DNA of 25,316 bases. Origin: a virus. The stretch covers positions 1-25,316 of IMG/VR virus record IMGVR_UViG_3300027896_000201; one strand, written 5' to 3'. Positions 2,165-16,760 of the stretch are shown one piece after another. Position 1 is the first letter of the stretch. The number at the start of each line of letters is the position of its first letter. Under the pieces are notes generated by a model, which was not told the origin of the DNA, did not search any database, and saw nothing but the letters and a program-made list of their open reading frames with translations. Made by a program: the position numbers and the translations under genes.

Positions 2165-2617
2165 TTAAGGTTTATTGAATGATCTCATCTGGTCTTTTGT
2201 AAAGCCAGCACAGAATGGCCTGTTCACTGGATCAAAATCTGAATGCTGATAAACAGTGATCCCATTATATTGAGATCTCAGCATGGCAAGAAGCTTCATG
2301 AGTGAAGAGATCTGGGCTGGGGTGAATGTGGCTGACTTGCCTATCAAACAAATCTGGACACAATTATTCTTCCCCAGAGTGGCAGCTGCAGTCTCGTCAA
2401 ACTCAAACTGATCATCATCATCCAATGCCCTGCCTGTCTCCACAGATCCATCAAAATACTCATGATGCTTTTTAGCAGTGAGTTGCCCATTGAGAATGAC
2501 ATAGTGATATCCAATGTGAATACCATCCTGATTCTTGAATCCTTTCTCTGCGTGCCATGTATCAATCATGGCAGCATTGCCAAAGGGACTATCTGAGCAA
2601 TGAAGAATAACATCCAT
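2165..2617 (-). CDS. Endolysin, zinc N-acetylmuramoyl-L-alanine amidase (Amidase_2, T7 lysozyme type)
   Basis: The 150-aa protein has the full Amidase_2 core: ILHCSDSPFG near the start (H6), IGYHYVI (Y37), a GRALDDDD stretch, ICLIG (like VCLVG in T7 lysozyme), FTPAQISSL, and QHSDFDP...CAGF at the end. H6, H125 and C136 are the expected zinc ligands. The basic residue usually found two positions before the cysteine is proline here, with an arginine one further away. It cleaves the amide bond between muramic acid and L-alanine in peptidoglycan. There is no signal peptide, so export relies on the holin downstream. Its ATG follows directly after the stop codon of the preceding gene. Confidence 0.93.
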   Translation of the reverse strand: MDVILHCSDSPFGNAAMIDTWHAEKGFKNQDGIHIGYHYVILNGQLTAKKHHEYFDGSVETGRALDDDDQFEFDETAAATLGKNNCVQICLIGKSATFTPAQISSLMKLLAMLRSQYNGITVYQHSDFDPVNRPFCAGFTKDQMRSFNKP

Positions 2618-3028
2618 CTACCTATGTATATGTATTGTCACTGTCTTTGTATCAGAAGGACATCCTGCTTTATTTAGAGTAACAGTATATGTAACAATAG
2701 CCTCCTGTACACTTGTTTTCAGCTTAAAGGTAGCATATATGTGGGGGGCATCAGTTGCATTAACCTGATAGGGCGAAGTTTGCCCTGCAGTCTGTATGGC
2801 ACGCAATAGATAAATTGATGGAGATGAAACATCAATATTTGCGTTTGTCCAGTTGTGAAGCATGGGCAAGGTAATACTGGCCGCAACCTCTGTTAATTCC
2901 TCGTAAGGCGAAGAGAATGGGACTGCTGATACATCAAAAATAGGACACAATGTATCCCCTCTTGGAGAAGGATTAGGTGGAGACTGAGCAATCATAATTG
3001 CTGACATTGAGATCAGTGCTAAAGTCAT
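2618..3028 (-). CDS. Exported beta-rich protein, real start probably upstream
   Basis: As written the protein is 136 aa and begins MTLALISMSAIMIAQS, a signal-peptide core with cleavage after AQ but no basic N-terminus. An ATG at 3044 followed by A8 would supply MKKIL in front if the tract had seven A. The mature part is beta-rich with an Ig-like ending (TYTVTLNKAGCPSDTKTVTIHIHR) and two cysteines (C28, C123). I recognise no family. It lies between tail spike and endolysin and ends directly against the amidase start, so it is co-transcribed with the lysis genes. It may act in the periplasm or at the cell surface; the function is unknown. Confidence 0.65.
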   Translation of the reverse strand: MTLALISMSAIMIAQSPPNPSPRGDTLCPIFDVSAVPFSSPYEELTEVAASITLPMLHNWTNANIDVSSPSIYLLRAIQTAGQTSPYQVNATDAPHIYATFKLKTSVQEAIVTYTVTLNKAGCPSDTKTVTIHIHR

Positions 3029-3065
3029 TAAAATTTTTTTTCATTTTTTCATTTTTAAATTAATA

Positions 3066-5402
3066 CTAAAGATATTTAAAGTTATTAAGAGCCTCATCAA
3101 TAGTGACAAAATCAATCCCTTGGGCAATAGCATAAGCAACTACCTCACTCCAGCCTGCTGCCTTAGGGGCAGTGTATGCGTGCATAGTGAATACAAGATA
3201 TCTATCTTGGGCAATTGCTATGTCTATTTGAGCCTTAGCTGCAGCCACTCCTTCAGGGGTTGTCATGTCATAGCCATAGGAATAGGCAATATCTCCCAGG
3301 ATGATCTGCCAGTCATAAAAATTCATAGCAGCTGGATTCGTTCCTTCAGTTGCTGCAATGATATGCCCATTGTAAGATCTATAGTACTGCCTTGCCAGAT
3401 CCCTCAGGTCAACTGCATTCCTGTTAACTCCATGAGGAATGAGAGTCTTGCAAGTTATGCCATAGCTTTCAATCAGATCCTGAGTAAGTATGAGCTTAGC
3501 CTCAATCTGAGCCTTTGTCATTAAAGTCCAGTTCTCGTTCACCCCATGATTACAAATCTCCCATCCAGCTGCAAGAAGCCTCTGAACCTGTACCCATGAT
3601 AAGTAAGTACCTGAAGTCCCTACATCCAGAGGCAAAATGGCATTCACCCCAACAAGCCCAAGAGCATCCATGAGAGGCTTCCATCCAGTAAAGCAATCAG
3701 CAAGGCTATCATCATACCTGAGAGTCATCATAGGTTTGCTTGATTTTTTCTCTCCTATCTTCAGATATCCATCAGAGTCATAAGTGACAGCCCCGTATTC
3801 ATCAAGCACAGCAGCAATGATGTCACCAGTGAAATTGAATATTTTCTTCTGATTAATACCTGACTTGTCAATAGTGTAAAGGAATATTGACTGGAGAGAT
3901 GTTCTGCTTTCCTCCTCAATGGAATTATCATCCATCTCAACAAAGAGTTTCCCTTTATAACCTACATTCAGCATATTAATGAGACTCCTTTGATTGAGCT
4001 CCCTGATATAAAAATCCTTAGTATTTGAAGAATCATAATCTTTTAATTTTGTAGCAGTCCCATTAAGAGTGAGGCTCAGGTTTATGATTGATGCCTCTGT
4101 GATTGTTGTGTCATATTTTGTCTCAAAGATAAGAGAGTTACTGTTATGCATCAAGGTAATCCCTATCTCATTAAAAGCATAGGCATTGGCATAAACAAAG
4201 TCATAGGCTGTGTAAAACAAATTTGTCCTCCATGTGACTGTGGCTGTTATTCCATTAACTGTGACAGATGCTGTGCCTGAAGTTCCAGACAAGGCAATTA
4301 CTGCTCTCTTGTCAGCCCTTGCAATACTCTTCCAGATTGTTGCATTTGATCTGTCAAAGAATGCATCTGTGAATCTGATTTTGCTATCTGTTAAATTATG
4401 GTTTAGTAGATTCGCTGCAGGAGTTGCCACTTCCCCGTAAACAGTAGCTGATGCAATTTGCAAAGTCCTTAATATTTTACTGCCAGCATAGCTATTGCAA
4501 ATTATTATAGGTTCAGCTGATTTGTCTATATGAGTGTAAACTGAGCAACCATGATCCAGCAACCAAGAGGAGGCAGATCCATATGATCTCTCAAAAGTCA
4601 TGGCTGCCATTGCGTTGAAGTGCTGGGCATTCCCAGAAACATCAGTGCCATCATAGATGAGGGGCTGATGGATCTGGAGATCTGTTAAATAAGAATCATC
4701 TCTGCACTGAGCAAGAGACTTGATGGCTGAGAACTTCTTGAAGTTGAGAGAAGCTATATGGTCTGAGTAGCAGGGCCTAAAATAAATCTCATTATCATCA
4801 TTATTAAAAGTCCAAGACGAAATATCAAGATCTACTATGCTTGTGCCAAGAATTGAATCATCTGATGATTTATAAAAGTCACAACTGATAGTCTTGGCTA
4901 TCCCATCAATCCTGAGGAAAAGTTCAAAATATCCCTGCCCCCTGAAAGTTGCATTGAATAAAGTGGGATATGTAATATTCAGATAAGATTTGTTTGTGCC
5001 ATCTCCAGCACTAAAATGAAGAATTCCATTGAAGATATTGAACTGGACACCCCTGCTTGTTGAGTTGATTGTTGATTGCCCAAACTCAAATAGACCTTTC
5101 TCTGCCCCTGATTCACTGGCATCAGAGACAAGTCTATATTTACAATAAATAGTGTATGTGCCTCCATCAAAAAGTCTCTCAGATGCCCTTGTCTTGTCTC
5201 CAGCAAAATAACCAACCCCATTCCCCAGCCATTCAGGAGTCAGGATTGTATTTACAGACCCATAATCATCCACTAAGGAGAGTCCTGATCTTGATCTTAT
5301 CATCATAGAGAGATCTGGATAATAAGGCACAACTGGCACTCTTGTCTGCTGGAGCTCAAGAGTAAAAACCTTAGGATTTGTATGAGTTAATAAAAACTTC
5401 AT
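3066..5402 (-). CDS. Tail spike/fibre with C-terminal polysaccharide deacetylase-like domain
   Basis: A 778-aa adhesin. Residues about 60-220 have a LamG/concanavalin-like pattern (GYFAGDKTRASE... GTYTIYCKYRL ... GYFELFLRIDG). The middle is beta-rich with no clear family. From about residue 557 to the end the sequence resembles the carbohydrate esterase 4 (NodB) fold: MMTLRYDDSLADC (the Asp-Asp motif), EICNHGVNEN (first metal His), KTLIPHG, and LVFTMHAY near the end. The HxxxH motif is incomplete: glutamate stands where the second histidine belongs. It probably binds and de-esterifies a surface glycan during adsorption. It lies after the hub and before the lysis genes, the usual place of receptor-binding proteins. 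Activity is inferred; the domain could be a non-catalytic glycan binder. Confidence 0.75.
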   Translation of the reverse strand: MKFLLTHTNPKVFTLELQQTRVPVVPYYPDLSMMIRSRSGLSLVDDYGSVNTILTPEWLGNGVGYFAGDKTRASERLFDGGTYTIYCKYRLVSDASESGAEKGLFEFGQSTINSTSRGVQFNIFNGILHFSAGDGTNKSYLNITYPTLFNATFRGQGYFELFLRIDGIAKTISCDFYKSSDDSILGTSIVDLDISSWTFNNDDNEIYFRPCYSDHIASLNFKKFSAIKSLAQCRDDSYLTDLQIHQPLIYDGTDVSGNAQHFNAMAAMTFERSYGSASSWLLDHGCSVYTHIDKSAEPIIICNSYAGSKILRTLQIASATVYGEVATPAANLLNHNLTDSKIRFTDAFFDRSNATIWKSIARADKRAVIALSGTSGTASVTVNGITATVTWRTNLFYTAYDFVYANAYAFNEIGITLMHNSNSLIFETKYDTTITEASIINLSLTLNGTATKLKDYDSSNTKDFYIRELNQRSLINMLNVGYKGKLFVEMDDNSIEEESRTSLQSIFLYTIDKSGINQKKIFNFTGDIIAAVLDEYGAVTYDSDGYLKIGEKKSSKPMMTLRYDDSLADCFTGWKPLMDALGLVGVNAILPLDVGTSGTYLSWVQVQRLLAAGWEICNHGVNENWTLMTKAQIEAKLILTQDLIESYGITCKTLIPHGVNRNAVDLRDLARQYYRSYNGHIIAATEGTNPAAMNFYDWQIILGDIAYSYGYDMTTPEGVAAAKAQIDIAIAQDRYLVFTMHAYTAPKAAGWSEVVAYAIAQGIDFVTIDEALNNFKYL

Positions 5403-5412
5403 GGCTTTAAAA

Positions 5413-5757
5413 TTATGTGATTTGTCCAGTGATGTTAATTACTCCCTTTAGGATTGTCATAATAGCCCCAGTATTATCAATAACTTGAAGGTCATGCAGA
5501 AAAGTTCCTAAGACATTCAAGGGATCTGCCTTAATGATGAGGATATCTTCATCAATTGTGATGGCAGGGGTATCCCCTTCAGTTGAGAAGCTTGCTATGG
5601 TTGTAACTTCATCCAGAGTCTTGATTGTCATGTCAAGCCTCATGCTTGTCATATCATATGCAGACCCATTCAGATCCACAGAAAAGGCAATATCTATGTC
5701 ATCCCCAGCAGTCAAATTTATTGTTGCTGTATCATTTTCAATGTTGTAAACTTCCAT
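5413..5757 (-). CDS. Small beta-rich tail-associated protein (114 aa)
   Basis: The protein is almost entirely beta-like and acidic (NLTAGDDIDIAFSVDLNG..., then DMTIKT and ITIDEDILIIKAD). This resembles the small domains that begin baseplate upper proteins and fibre-attachment proteins in other siphoviruses (BppU N-terminal type), but similarity by eye is weak. It sits directly before the spike with a 10-base gap, and its ATG has a clear A/T-rich leader (TTTTTATAG reversed). The likely role is an adaptor or chaperone for the spike. No signal peptide or membrane segment. Confidence 0.7.
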   Translation of the reverse strand: MEVYNIENDTATINLTAGDDIDIAFSVDLNGSAYDMTSMRLDMTIKTLDEVTTIASFSTEGDTPAITIDEDILIIKADPLNVLGTFLHDLQVIDNTGAIMTILKGVINITGQIT

Positions 5758-5768
5758 AATTTTAATTT

Positions 5769-7280
5769 TTATAGTCCATACTTTGCCTTCAGATAATTAT
5801 AAATCAATGCTTCATCCCCAGCAGAATCAGCAAGTTTTCTGGAGACTATCTCCTTGACTTCAATATTGCTAAATGTAGAGGCATAGTTTCCTTGCACTCC
5901 AATGGTAAGACCTCCTGCATTGTTTGCTCCAAAATTCCCTGTTATCGGTGTTCCTGCGTTTACTATAAGTTTAGATGAAGCACCATTGAAAAGAATCCTG
6001 ACAATGCTCCAAGTATTTACGACAAGATCAGCATTCTCAGCCCCAATAGTGCCAGCATATCCCCTGATTCTTGGAGTCGTGGCACTCTGATAGAGTCTAT
6101 TTGTATTGATTGAAGTACCATCAATAATTGTGTCATTTAATGTCCAAGTCACTTGCCTCATCACCATGTAGATAAAGTGTGGCTGATTAAGTGTAAGCAC
6201 TGGGGTTGTCATATAGTTATCTACTCCATCAAATAATCCTGCAACTGGCCTGAAGGATAAAGTCCCTTGAGCTAAATGATTCCCAAGCACTCTCTTAACC
6301 TTATTATTAGAATCCAATGCGTAAACATCAGCAGCAGCAAAAATATCCCCTATTCCGCAACCTGTAAAAAAGTGATTTGTTTGAGTTGCTGTTATCTCAT
6401 AAACTCCATATTTAACACAATTCCCTGAAGCTTCTTCAGATCCTCTGGAGCTCTTCCCCACAAGCATATCATACCAAGCTTCATCAGCCCCTCCCCTTGT
6501 CAAGACATCATCAGCAGTGGCTGGTATGTACCATCCAAATCCATTGCCATCATTTATAACAAGGGGATGGGTAATATTGTTTGAGACTGTCTGCCCTGAG
6601 AAGGATTCAGTGGCTATCCCTCCCACAAGTCCCTTCAATTGATTTGATACTGGCTTTGTATATGAAACTGTGACTGCATCTGCATAAGCATATGCCACAG
6701 ATACTGTGAGGATCACAGTTGATCCAACCACCTCAGCCAGAGAGATTGTCTTGCCAGCCAGAGTGAAGTCAGTTGTGGCAGGAGTGGATGTCTCATCCAG
6801 TGCCTGATCCATTGTAATGACAACTTTTGTGGGTAGAAGCTGAACTATTGCAGCACTTACAAAGACTGGAGCTGTCCCATGGGTCAATTGCTCAAGCAGA
6901 CCAGATCCCTGAATAGATCCTGAGTAATTCATTGCCTGCTCAGTATCTCTGACTATTTTTATATTATTTATTGTGCCAGATCCTGTCCAGCCATCAGCAC
7001 TGTCATCAGTGGGCTTGAATTTGATTGTCGCTGGAGTTGCCCCTGCAATAGCCAGAGCCATGATCTCCTCAGCCCCAAGACCTACCCCACTCTCATCATA
7101 TCTTCCCTCAAAAGAGATCTCCCACTTTCTAAGTCCCTTGAGATGATCAGCATTGCCCCCAGAGTCCTTGGTTGTCAGGTCTGCCAGATCCTGCTCAGTT
7201 GTCAGGACAGCTCCAGTGGCATAAAGGATCTTATTTGAGTCATGATACACCGCAAAGAGTGTCCCGTTTATTGTGCTCAT
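5769..7280 (-). CDS. Third tail-tube paralog, fused to Ig-like and LamG-like domains
   Basis: A 503-aa chimera. Residues 1-130 clearly align with the two major tail proteins at 13793-14194 and 13024-13788: M.(T/K)ING/ATL at the start, EQDL.D...K(D/E)S.G.A(D/E)H..GLR, FEGRYDESG, and a final SGSIQG.G. Residues about 133-235 look like a bacterial Ig-like SwmB type domain (FVSAAIVQLLPTKVVI ... AVTVSYTKP). From about 240 to the end a LamG-like fold is likely (FDGVDNYMTTPVLTL, then strands to LKAKYGL). It lies in the adhesion region, 6 kb from the other tube genes, so the tube domain may have become an anchor displaying glycan-binding domains on or at the tip of the tail. It could instead assemble as a minor tube subunit. 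Confidence 0.75.
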   Translation of the reverse strand: MSTINGTLFAVYHDSNKILYATGAVLTTEQDLADLTTKDSGGNADHLKGLRKWEISFEGRYDESGVGLGAEEIMALAIAGATPATIKFKPTDDSADGWTGSGTINNIKIVRDTEQAMNYSGSIQGSGLLEQLTHGTAPVFVSAAIVQLLPTKVVITMDQALDETSTPATTDFTLAGKTISLAEVVGSTVILTVSVAYAYADAVTVSYTKPVSNQLKGLVGGIATESFSGQTVSNNITHPLVINDGNGFGWYIPATADDVLTRGGADEAWYDMLVGKSSRGSEEASGNCVKYGVYEITATQTNHFFTGCGIGDIFAAADVYALDSNNKVKRVLGNHLAQGTLSFRPVAGLFDGVDNYMTTPVLTLNQPHFIYMVMRQVTWTLNDTIIDGTSINTNRLYQSATTPRIRGYAGTIGAENADLVVNTWSIVRILFNGASSKLIVNAGTPITGNFGANNAGGLTIGVQGNYASTFSNIEVKEIVSRKLADSAGDEALIYNYLKAKYGL

Positions 7281-7307: not shown

Positions 7308-7784
7308 TCAAAGCTTTGAATGTAATATCCAGCCAATTCCAAGTCCGATAATTAGAGTAATAACCATCCTTATAATGGTATTCGGCAAACTTGAATATTT
7401 CTCAAGAAGTGCAAACTTGATATCTCCATCATTGAGCCTTGCTTCAATGGAGTCCAGCCTGATGTTTATTTGCCTGAGGTTGTCGTTTATCTGACCAATG
7501 AGTTTATTCTGTTCCTCAAGTGCCTTAAACATGTGCTTATTCTGAGTTATTATAACCTCTCCAAGTGCCTCGGCAAGCAACCTGTCTCGGTTGTCAAATG
7601 TATCAGCAAGTAACCTCTCAGTATGTTTGTTCTGCTCTTTAATAGCTTCTTTCAAGGCTTCCGCATTTACCTCATCCTGTCTGTCAAATAAAAGCTTTAC
7701 CCATTTTATATTATCAGGGGTGCGAGACAGTCCTTCTTCCGTTTTTTCGCTTAAAGGCAGGTTGTCATAGTTACTTTTTTCCAT
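7308..7784 (-). CDS. Coiled-coil protein with C-terminal membrane anchor
   Basis: A 158-aa protein: polar N-terminus, long predicted coiled coil about residues 40-125 with repeated 'EQNKH/EEQNKL' elements, and one strong transmembrane segment near residues 135-154 ending in HSKL. No family recognised. It follows the 35-aa membrane protein, with which it overlaps by 14 bases. Its DNA has far more CpG than the flanking tail genes, which suggests later acquisition. A tail-anchored membrane protein is not expected as a virion part; superinfection exclusion or host membrane interference is possible but not shown. Confidence 0.7.
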   Translation of the reverse strand: MEKSNYDNLPLSEKTEEGLSRTPDNIKWVKLLFDRQDEVNAEALKEAIKEQNKHTERLLADTFDNRDRLLAEALGEVIITQNKHMFKALEEQNKLIGQINDNLRQINIRLDSIEARLNDGDIKFALLEKYSSLPNTIIRMVITLIIGLGIGWILHSKL

Positions 7785-7903: not shown

Positions 7904-8311
7904 TCACCTGTTTCGATTTGATTGAGTCTGTAACATACTGTAATCTGAACTTTTTTTTTGCTCGTCAATGAACTGCTCCATGAACTTACGGAGGTCGTCT
8001 TTTGTCACTGACTTGTCATTTGCAAGATGGTCGGCAAAGCTCTTGATTATCTTACCCTGATCTTTGCTTATGTTCTTGACATCATACTTCACTCCGCGAA
8101 CATATAAAAGCAATGAGTCGAGCTTTGCCCCCTGATTCTGGAGCACCTGTTCTGTCCTGAGGTCATTCTTTTCATTTGTGATGTTCTTTGCTTTCCAATG
8201 GTCAAGGAAGATTGCTCCTCCTCCAATGATCCCAGCTATTGCTCCGATAGCAACAATCCCTTTCCATGCCTCAGCTATCTTCTTTAAACCGCTTAGAATT
8301 ATCTCCCCCAT
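7904..8311 (-). CDS. Small protein with N-terminal membrane anchor, probably frameshifted at A9
   Basis: As written 135 aa: an amphipathic start, one glycine-rich transmembrane segment (about residues 18-36, IVAIGAIAGIIGGGAIF), then a helical region with KLDSLL and a basic/acidic C-terminal helix. It follows the hub gene by 4 bases. Small membrane proteins of this kind are frequent after the hub gene in Bacteroidota phages; their function is unknown. At A9 (7951-7959) the frame may break: read in -1, the protein continues as FRLQYVTDSIKSKQ... and ends at TGA 7875-7877, which overlaps the next ATG. CpG content is high compared with flanking genes. Confidence 0.75.
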   Translation of the reverse strand: MGEIILSGLKKIAEAWKGIVAIGAIAGIIGGGAIFLDHWKAKNITNEKNDLRTEQVLQNQGAKLDSLLLYVRGVKYDVKNISKDQGKIIKSFADHLANDKSVTKDDLRKFMEQFIDEQKKSSDYSMLQTQSNRNR

Positions 8312-12340: not shown

Positions 12341-13027
12341 CCCTGAACTGTATTAATTTTTTCCTAACTTCTTCAAGCTCCTCAGGGGATACTTTCTTCT
12401 CCATCTTGTCCTGCCTCTGGATCTTGTCATCCTTTATTTTGAAGATATCCCTTGGGCTGCTTGGTTTATCCTTGATATATGGATTGCCATTGATCATTGC
12501 AAAAACAAGTTCTCTCATGAGCCATGCAGTATTCCTCTCCCAATTCCTCCAGTATCCATCAACTGCCAGATAATATTCTGTCAAAGTGGAGAGCCTCCAT
12601 CTCTCCTCAGGCCAGCCCAGCTCCCCACAGGCAAATATCTTAAACTCCCTGAGGCTTACTTTTTTTTTAATGCCTCATCATTGGCCTGAGCCATATCCTT
12701 CAAATAACCAAGAAGTTTCTTCATCTCTTCCATGAAGATCTTCCTTGCTTCAGCGTTCATATATTCAGCCCAGAATGATCCCTTGATCTCTGAATACCTT
12801 GGCTTCTTATAAAGCTCCTTACAGGCTGCCATATATCCATTCCATAGCAGGGATGCATAGACATCAACCTCAGCATTCTCCCTGCCAAAAAGTTCCCCGA
12901 ATTCAACCCCCAAGTCATCACAGGTCATCTCAAGAGTCATGATCTTGAATAAGAATGGGACTTTCTTCTCCCTGAAGATTATCCCGTACTTGAAGGGCAT
13001 TCTTAACCAGACAATATCTGCTCTCAT
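12327..13027 (-). CDS. Tail assembly chaperone long form by -1 frameshift (gpGT-like)
   Basis: The 123-codon upstream frame ends ...ALKKK-stop on a run of nine A (12660-12668). Slipping back one base on it avoids the stop and joins the -1 frame, which is open to the stop at 12327 (about 110 residues more, about 233 aa in total). The added part reads VSLREFKIFACGELGWP, then LTEYYLAVDGYWRNW, and ends in a charged helix. It has no good start of its own: only a TTG at 12584, after the conserved-looking part. A short and a frameshifted long chaperone between tail tube and tape measure is the conserved arrangement of lambda G/GT. The long form binds the tape measure and recruits tube subunits. It overlaps the tape-measure start by 14 bases. 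Confidence 0.82.
12605..12668 (-). promoter_or_regulatory. Programmed -1 ribosomal frameshift signal
   Basis: The mRNA has a slippery run A9 (12660-12668), a 5-base spacer GTAAG that contains the zero-frame stop, and then a perfect 7-bp stem CCTCAGG/CCTGAGG (12648-12654 with 12605-12611) closed by a 36-base loop. Slippery site, short spacer and downstream stem are the classical parts of a -1 signal. The stem could be extended into a pseudoknot, which I cannot test by eye. Confidence 0.7.
12656..13027 (-). CDS. Tail assembly chaperone short form (gpG-like)
   Basis: A 123-aa helical protein starting at ATG 13027 (MRADIVWLRMPFKYG), which overlaps the preceding stop as ATGA; a longer frame from 13102 would lie inside the upstream tail gene and is rejected. 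It has a conserved-looking TCDDLGVEFGELF, then YASLLWNGYMAACK, and a charged helical end (ALKKK). Together with the frameshifted form it should coat the tape measure before the tube polymerises. It is absent from the finished virion in known phages. I see no motif beyond helical pattern; the call rests on position, size and the A9 slippery end. Confidence 0.8.
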   Translation of the reverse strand: MRADIVWLRMPFKYGIIFREKKVPFLFKIMTLEMTCDDLGVEFGELFGRENAEVDVYASLLWNGYMAACKELYKKPRYSEIKGSFWAEYMNAEARKIFMEEMKKLLGYLKDMAQANDEALKKK

Positions 13028-13788
13028 GATGCAACAAATTTGAATACATAAATCGGGGAAGTTGACAGGTTTGATGCCCCTGTATTGCTGATATTCAGGC
13101 ATCCAGTCTGGGTACTTGTCACAGTAAGGGTCACAATATTGAGCCCAGCTGTTAATGTGACCACATTGGAGATTGCAGACCCTCCCACTTGGAAGATGGC
13201 TACATCAGGAAGCTGCCCTGAATTCAGTGTCACAAATAAAACAACCTTGATCACATCTCCATTGCTGACAGAGAATGAATTGCTCTTTGCATATGCAGTC
13301 CCTGCAAGATTGATCAGTGAGCTGAAGGCTTTATTTGCATCTGTATGGGTATCGTAATCAGTCCCTCCTGAGTCAGGATCTGTCAGTAGATCTGCTGAAG
13401 TTCCCTTGAGCTGGTAAAAAGCCCCCTGAACCTTCATGCTTCCACTCAGAGACATCACACCTTCCTGAGGGGCATCTATCTTGATTGAAGCCATATCAAC
13501 CTCAGCGACCATAGGGAAGGCCACTCCTCCCACAATTGTGAGAAGCAATGATGTCCTTCCTGTGATATAGGCCATTAACTCCCCGGCTGAGATCCCAGTT
13601 GTGGAGAATAATGCATCAAAGTCCACAGAGGCATTCCTGAGCCCGTTTATATGCTCAGCCCATCCTCCAGATTCCTTATTGCTGGCATCAGGAAGATCCT
13701 GCTCCACAGAGACAGAACACCCCTTCTGAGCAGCAATGACAACCCCATCTGCATAGAGCAGAAGGAGTGTTGCATTGATCTTGCTCAT
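13024..13788 (-). CDS. Second tail-tube protein with C-terminal beta extension
   Basis: The 254-aa protein is a paralog of the gene just upstream: start M.KIN.TL, then the shared EQDLPD..NKES.GWAEHINGLRN and a final SGSMK..GA. This covers residues 1 to about 130. Residues about 135-254 are an additional beta-rich domain (FSVSNGDVIKVVLFVTLN, AGLNIVTLTVT) resembling the Ig-like or carbohydrate-binding decorations seen on lambda gpV and other tube proteins. It differs from its neighbour in the middle (ALFSTTGISAGELM replaces EGKYDESGSGITPNE). It starts 4 bases after its neighbour's stop. It could be a decorated minor tube subunit or the main subunit; the sequence does not decide. Confidence 0.82.
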   Translation of the reverse strand: MSKINATLLLLYADGVVIAAQKGCSVSVEQDLPDASNKESGGWAEHINGLRNASVDFDALFSTTGISAGELMAYITGRTSLLLTIVGGVAFPMVAEVDMASIKIDAPQEGVMSLSGSMKVQGAFYQLKGTSADLLTDPDSGGTDYDTHTDANKAFSSLINLAGTAYAKSNSFSVSNGDVIKVVLFVTLNSGQLPDVAIFQVGGSAISNVVTLTAGLNIVTLTVTSTQTGCLNISNTGASNLSTSPIYVFKFVAS

Positions 13789-16223: not shown

Positions 16224-16760
16224 TCAATACCTCTGTCCGATTTTAATCATCAGCCTTGTGATCACAGCAGCTTTGCCTGCATCAGATCCTGTACAAGAGA
16301 CTTTGATATATCTCCAAAGCACTCCGGTTGATACATCAGCAAGGGAAGCCACAGCTGGAGTTGTACCGGCCTGTTGTGCTGCTGGCAGCCACATGGTTGT
16401 GGGATGGAAGAGCACAGTATCAAGCTTGACCCAGTAAGATTTGTCAATACTCCCATAGGTTGTGACAGTCACATGGTTGCCCACAGTTCTGGCAGTGGTC
16501 AGAGAATAGGCAAGAGATGTGTCATACTCAACCACAAGCTGGTAATAGTTCAGCGTTGGCTTGGCAAGATCAAAGATCCAGTACTTGGTTGCTGTCCCTC
16601 CTATTGTATCCTTGATGCAAGTTGCTGTGTGAGTGGCATAATTAAATGCAGTGTAAGAAGTTACCCCTGCAGGCAGGACATAAGTCGTGCCTGAAGTCTG
16701 AGCCTGCATCCCCATTGAGAATGCAAGCAGGATTGTGATAAATGCTACAAATTTTTTCAT
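16224..16760 (-). CDS. Exported beta-rich protein in the head operon
   Basis: A 178-aa protein with a clear signal peptide: MKKF, hydrophobic VAFITILLAF, then MGMQAQ with likely cleavage after AQ. The mature part is beta-rich (YYQLVVEYDTS, HVTVTTYGS, SYWVKLDTVLF, RYIKVSCTGS) and contains two cysteines. I recognise no family; the ending with a strand pattern IKVSC...ITRLMIKIG recalls ligand-binding beta-sandwiches. It lies between major capsid protein and a strong terminator, so should be made in large amounts. Export by Sec does not fit an ordinary capsid component; it may be a secreted or cell-surface factor made late in infection. Its start has a strong Shine-Dalgarno, unlike its neighbours. 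Confidence 0.8.
   Translation of the reverse strand: MKKFVAFITILLAFSMGMQAQTSGTTYVLPAGVTSYTAFNYATHTATCIKDTIGGTATKYWIFDLAKPTLNYYQLVVEYDTSLAYSLTTARTVGNHVTVTTYGSIDKSYWVKLDTVLFHPTTMWLPAAQQAGTTPAVASLADVSTGVLWRYIKVSCTGSDAGKAAVITRLMIKIGQRY

Follow-up and report, generated by a model that had tools for sequence, protein, structure and literature searches.

The target gene of a metagenomic viral contig encodes what is probably (about two chances in three) a structural tail protein, namely, a paralogue of the phage's own tail tube protein that docks at the tail tip and displays an Ig-like spacer and a putatively glycan-binding LamG-like domain. The computed basis of this reading consists of tube homology, the predicted fold, the order of the domains, the position in the tail-tip gene cluster, exchange of the LamG module, and recurrent origins of comparable proteins. 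Incorporation into the virion, the docking site, the copy number, and glycan binding are what we infer. According to the proposed scheme, a duplicate of the tube gene would have diverged into a separate structural tail protein, whose tube domain would dock at or near the tip, either on the last tube ring or on the hub. The Ig-like spacer and the LamG-like module would be held outward, as suggested by analogy with known tube extensions (PMC8718954), and the LamG module would bind host surface glycans and aid adsorption next to the fibre.

Gene neighborhood of the target

The window, i.e., the whole 25,316-base IMG/VR viral contig, carries a siphophage-type structural module, of which most genes lie on the minus strand. 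The packaging and head genes are followed by connectors, tube 1, tube 2, a pair of small genes, genes resembling those for the tape measure and the hub, two further small genes, the target, a gene of the PHROG 1084 family, a fibre-like gene, and an endolysin-like gene (Table 1). Several gene names in the structural module were given by position and general knowledge of the families. As to the host, the nearest relatives (numbered here with the prefix L) point to Bacteroidota and related phages.

TABLE 1 Features of the window and of one related locus
Feature	Coordinates	Strand	Basis
Target, tube domain followed by SwmB/Ig-like and LamG-like domains, 503 aa	5769..7280	-	Intact ORF; family and fold matches
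Tail-tube domain, target residues 1-129	6894..7280	-	50% identity to tube 1; Pfam; fold
SwmB/Ig-like domain, target residues ~136-235	6576..6875	-	Sub-cutoff Pfam SWM_repeat; low-confidence model
LamG-like module, target residues ~237-503	5772..6572	-	Homologous adhesins and hub; sialidase/NEL matches
Tube 1, presumed major tail tube protein, 133 aa	13793..14194	-	Pfam Phage_tail_2 (E value, 6.6e-10); conserved in relatives
Tube 2, tube domain with ~125-aa extension	13024..13788	-	Pfam (E value, 3.5e-6)
Tape-measure-like protein, putative, 565 aa	10643..12340	-	Position; length; same-place homologues in relatives
Tail hub/tip protein, 775 aa	8316..10643	-	Profile and structural homologues
Small membrane-anchored-looking protein between hub and target	7904..8311	-	Sequence only
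Small coiled-coil/TM-looking protein directly before target	7308..7784	-	Sequence only
PHROG 1084 protein directly after target	5413..5757	-	PHROG 1084 (E value, 3.4e-5)
Tail fibre-like protein with C-terminal polysaccharide-deacetylase-like domain	3066..5402	-	Pfam Polysacc_deac_1 (19.3 bits, below the cutoff of 23.1)
Post-hub tube-TSP1 protein of L247 (position in that locus)	2294-3343		

Tube 1 occupies the canonical place before the tape measure, and the pair of tube 1 and tube 2 is kept in sister contigs. A profile of the first 250 residues of the hub retrieved 139 matching ORFs, located after the tape measure wherever this gene was seen. Its homologues in Cellulophaga and Salinibacter phages are annotated as structural, several of them by tandem mass spectrometry (MS/MS). 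The family PHROG 1084 also occurs near the hub in L014 and L018, where it gives a weak, sub-cutoff match to the LtfC-like (fibre-attachment) family of Pfam. The neighboring long gene is a putative tail fibre by its position.

Tube 2 with its 125-aa extension stands beside tube 1 in the whole sister clade. The hub of L084 carries a module resembling this extension (E value, 2e-5) together with a Fib_succ_major domain. The gene at positions 16224 to 16760, adjoining the capsid gene, encodes a protein whose start looks like a signal peptide; L018 has a homologue in the corresponding position (58% identity).

The target begins with a tail-tube domain

The target is encoded in a single continuous frame that starts with ATG. 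Its residues 1 to 129 align with tube 1 without gaps at 50% identity (E value, 1e-40) and with tube 2 at 34% identity (E value, 2e-14). The Smith-Waterman score against tube 1 was 338, the maximum of 1,000 shuffles being 51. None of the remaining window proteins scored above background against the target tube domain, and the contig contains only three copies of it. Approximately 5.7 kb separate the start of the target from the end of tube 2, and 6.5 kb separate it from the end of tube 1. The target lies past the tape measure and the hub, not between the terminator and the tape measure, which is the canonical place of the major tail tube gene.

Family and fold searches gave the same assignment. 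Pfam Phage_tail_2 matched the target with 25.3 bits, above its cutoff of 23.8, and PHROG 1407, annotated "major tail protein," matched with an E value of 1.5e-14. Searching the PDB by sequence with the target protein as a single query returned no matches, whereas the tube-domain profile retrieved the monocin tube (E value, 1.3e-14) and the RcGTA tube (E value, 4e-4). AlphaFold2 modeled most of the domain with a pLDDT of about 90. Structural alignment with VIA-align, whose rows covered the tube part of the model, placed residues 4 to 133 on the RcGTA tail tube with a Z score of 13.7 and a root mean square deviation (rmsd) of 4.3 over 122 aligned residues. The tubes of monocin, Sf11, 80alpha, and lambda were further structural neighbors, and Foldseek matched the target model to 8qhs with an E value of 4.9e-7.

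Among 23 positions conserved in the relatives of tube 1, the target has kept 20 and tube 2 has kept 12. One of the exceptions in the target is W43, which is invariant in the relatives of tube 1 (15/15) and of tube 2 (15/15) but replaced by Asn here. This position is part of the loop that connects strands 2 and 3; in lambda, that loop holds residues required for ring stacking (PMC8718954). The stacking face of the target may thus have been changed.

Ig-like and LamG-like modules

The Ig-like assignment is based on the sequence pattern and on a match of residues 136 to 210 to Pfam SWM_repeat (E value, 1.9e-4; 22.0 bits) that lies below the cutoff of 27. In the AlphaFold2 model of the whole protein, the Ig domain and an insert were not resolved, and residues 235 to 503 mostly had confidence values of 50 to 80. 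Pfam gave no match for residues 235 to 503. The conserved core of the LamG-like module spans residues 349 to 503, and about 60 extra residues are inserted near the start of the module. Foldseek matches of the target model to sialidases and an NEL protein, as expected for a lectin-like LamG domain, would most plausibly fall on this core.

Residues 349 to 503 share 44 to 58% identity with the C-terminal modules of tube-less adhesin-like proteins in L001 and L073 to L076. The L001 adhesin, whose module is 54% identical to that of the target, adjoins a spike-like gene. A more distant copy forms the C terminus of the hub in L101 (32% identity; E value, 3e-22), a close relative with the tube 1 and tube 2 pair. 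Since it occurs on a tube paralogue, a hub, and tube-less adhesins, the LamG-like domain appears to be a tail-adhesin module that moves between anchors. Its occurrence on a relative's hub and, in other loci, on free-standing adhesins favors the reading of the target as a tail-tip adhesin.

These results agree with most of the original prediction, which had described residues 1 to 130 as a third copy of the tube domain, some 6 kb from the others and among adhesion genes, continuing with an SwmB-like Ig domain and a LamG-like domain. The alignments, the place past the hub and beside the tail fibre, the sub-cutoff SWM_repeat match, and the tube-less homologues all conform to it. Comparison of the first 130 residues with tail tubes returned a predicted tube fold, and a non-tube fold was not seen. 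The further suggestion of receptor-binding domains displayed along the tail or at its tip is strengthened by the LamG module on a relative's hub and weakened by the exact fusion being seen just once in the sequences searched.

Comparison with known tube and tip proteins

The closest known system is the MTP-Ig-TpeX protein of 936-group lactococcal phages, which joins a tube core, an Ig adhesin domain, and a carbohydrate-binding module in 470 to 530 aa; a GFP-TpeX fusion binds host cells (PMC6669499). The target would have the same order, with its tube domain, a putative Ig domain (a sub-cutoff match), and a putative sugar-binding-type module, which is LamG-like in the target and BppA-like in the 936 phages. 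In the 936 phages, a frameshift in the one main tube gene produces the long form (PMC6669499), whereas the target is a separate, diverged gene past the tape measure and the hub that involves no frameshift. Lambda gpV, T5 pb6, YSD1, and SPP1 gp17.1* are tube proteins with C-terminal Ig or FN3 domains (PMC8718954) and, as proposed for the target, combine a tube domain with an outward Ig-type domain. All of them are main tube proteins, and none comes from an additional tip-cluster gene that also encodes a LamG module.

The original prediction had called such a display unusual. For the domain arrangement this has to be tempered, given the tube-Ig-carbohydrate-binding precedent in the 936 phages (PMC6669499). 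What is new by comparison is that a distinct paralogue has been recruited repeatedly to the tip cluster and bears unrelated modules, a difference that is genetic and probably also positional. In the open-access papers searched, we found no description of a second tube gene within that cluster.

These precedents bear on a second reading of the target, in which it mixes into the tube rings and shows its Ig and LamG domains along the shaft and not specifically at the tip. Shaft decoration is known from gpV-Ig in lambda and MTP-TpeX in the 936 phages. In its favor, the extensions of known tubes face outward (PMC8718954), TpeX attaches to host cells (PMC6669499), and the gapless match to tube 1 with its well-kept conserved residues would suit a ring subunit. 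The location of the gene in the tip cluster argues against this reading, as does the Asn at W43, inside a loop that makes ring-to-ring contacts in other tubes. Moreover, tube 2 already supplies a decorated tube protein. We consider shaft decoration unlikely but a live rival to the tip anchor.

Tube-domain copies past the hub in related phages

Hub and tube profiles were run over related loci. Including the window, 122 complete tube-domain ORFs were located past the hub in 84 loci, a total that is biased because one scan was seeded with post-hub copies, and some of the loci are overlapping fetches of the same contig. In half of these copies (61), no more than 7 residues follow the tube domain. 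The other 61 have an extension of at least 73 residues: 73 to 76 in 24 copies, 94 to 96 in 34, and at least 376 in 3, the target included. Among contigs that were seeded with the canonical tube, contain the hub, and extend past it by 1 kb or more, a post-hub copy was present in 12/30 and absent in 18/30. Elsewhere, the first post-hub copy starts 3 to 39 bases after the hub. The target starts 1,035 bases past it, with two genes between, which counts against the tip-anchor reading.

Two cultured phages carry such a gene. In Flavobacterium phage 11b, gp44 is a Phage_tail_2 protein encoded directly after the hub, gp36 being the canonical tube; in Cellulophaga phage phi10:1, the corresponding proteins are gp089 and gp084. 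Both gp44 and gp089 resemble the target as Phage_tail_2 paralogues past the hub but differ from it in having short C-terminal tails of about 35 aa and a separate origin in the tree. The annotation of gp089 cites sequence similarity only and not MS/MS, which counts against the tip-anchor reading, albeit weakly, since detection is not recorded for the main tube gp084 either.

Because roughly one post-hub copy in two lacks an extension, adhesin display is not their sole role, and the tube domain itself is suggested to act at that place. It could mainly build a Dit-like ring at the junction of tube and hub, to which extensions are optional additions. A separate Dit gene was not evident in the window, and the Dit protein gp49 of JBD30 has a tube-like tip core with oligosaccharide-binding domains inserted in it (PMC11445458), comparable to the sugar-binding-type domains proposed for the target at the tail tip. 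The 18 contigs without a post-hub copy indicate that such a ring is not generally required. Dit proteins are general parts of the tip, and their genes precede the hub, normally between it and the tape measure. The target differs in being located after the hub, in how closely its sequence matches the tube protein of its own phage, and in its optional presence. A tube-derived distal ring is quite improbable as the main role of the target, yet it is still a live rival to the tip anchor.

The exact fusion was sought more widely. No tube-Ig-LamG protein was found in phages, in viral contigs, or in the records behind 39 loci, and the exact Ig-LamG fusion is known from one metagenomic contig only. 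The 395 genomes of the phylum Bacteroidota gave few tube matches, at most two per genome, and not the same fusion; a scan of genome contigs yielded one close relative, L069, with the canonical tube pair only. A third tube copy is missing from L014, L081, and L084, all of them near relatives, which counts against the tip-anchor reading. The original prediction had proposed that the fusion be sought in related phages: post-hub tube proteins with other modules proved widespread, while the exact combination was absent. A decaying duplicate, or an assembly artifact joining a tube gene to an adhesin, would account for a fusion seen on a single metagenomic contig with no orthologue found, but it is very improbable given the intact frame over 503 aa, a G+C content like that of neighboring genes, the conserved tube residues, and a divergence from tube 1 (50% identity) greater than a recent duplication or misjoin would leave (tube 1 and its counterpart in L005 share 76% identity). 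The same divergence led us to dismiss misplacement of the main tube gene by misassembly.

Origins of the post-hub copies

When 79 tube domains were placed in a tree, the post-hub label had to change three times, and well-supported branches made each of these changes necessary. The post-hub pair of 11b and phi10:1 clusters with the main tubes of these phages, the large environmental post-hub clade forms one group, and the target falls within the tube 1 group. A single clade of all post-hub copies was rejected (P = 0.00027). An orthologous relationship between the target and the post-hub copies of the large clade was disfavored modestly (approximately unbiased [AU] test, P = 0.03). Deep branches are uncertain because the tube domain is short; as judged from these sequences, post-hub tube paralogues appear to have arisen separately at least three times.

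We tentatively propose, at somewhat less than even odds, that Bacteroidota-type siphophages possess a class of tail-tip anchors made of tube paralogues. These would have been recruited independently at least three times. At the distal end of the tube, which they would form or cap, they would provide an exchangeable mount for glycan-binding modules and fibres; in some phages, anchor and fibre would come together in a cassette that is duplicated and inverted.

Should the tip-anchor reading hold, the tube fold would be a connector in current reuse, beyond its roles in the shaft and as ancestor of tip rings, and a phage could duplicate its tube gene and attach new receptor-binding modules to the copy. 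Three separate origins with different modules would then amount to a general evolutionary route for changing host range. Post-hub proteins annotated "major tail protein," such as 11b gp44, may then be adhesin anchors. With 11b and phi10:1 in culture, the idea of a tube anchor can be tested in the laboratory.

Modules carried by post-hub tube copies

The extensions of post-hub copies vary in kind. A relative of 11b gp44 in L247 combines the tube domain with two thrombospondin type 1 (TSP1) repeats (Pfam E value, 1e-26) and a further C-terminal domain. TSP1 is best known from animals, and we found no report of it on phage tails in the open-access papers searched. The modeled C-terminal domain of the L184 type matches Gp48/49 of phage B2 (Z score, 9.5; rmsd, 1.7; 66 residues) and TSP4 of CBA120 (Z score, 8.8; rmsd, 2.0; 69 residues); this predicted domain is tailspike-adaptor-like and resembles domains of tailspike and fibre systems. 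In L199 (3039-4736) and L204 (2582-4249), the part behind the post-hub tube domain consists of repeated Cys-containing domains joined by long Thr/Ser-rich linkers. In L203 and L100, a 160-residue module interrupts the tube domain behind its first strand. This module shares 33 to 46% identity with a module of long fibre-like proteins that are encoded, in related contigs, directly downstream of post-hub tube copies.

In L124 (3978-6478), a tube paralogue and a long fibre gene are present twice in opposite orientation, with an 829-base spacer between the arms. The arms are 836 bases long and 86% complementary, and they are located before the main tube gene. The arrangement looks like a duplicated or invertible anchor-fibre cassette, and the doubling of both genes suggests that anchor and fibre travel together. 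Fibre-like genes of more than 1,200 aa were also seen away from the tip cluster, between the connectors and the tube gene, in L109 (858-4862) and L133 (4751-8569). In L014 (2523-3692), tube 1 and tube 2 share the same frame, separated by one TAA followed by ATG; readthrough of this TAA would yield a tandem tube protein.
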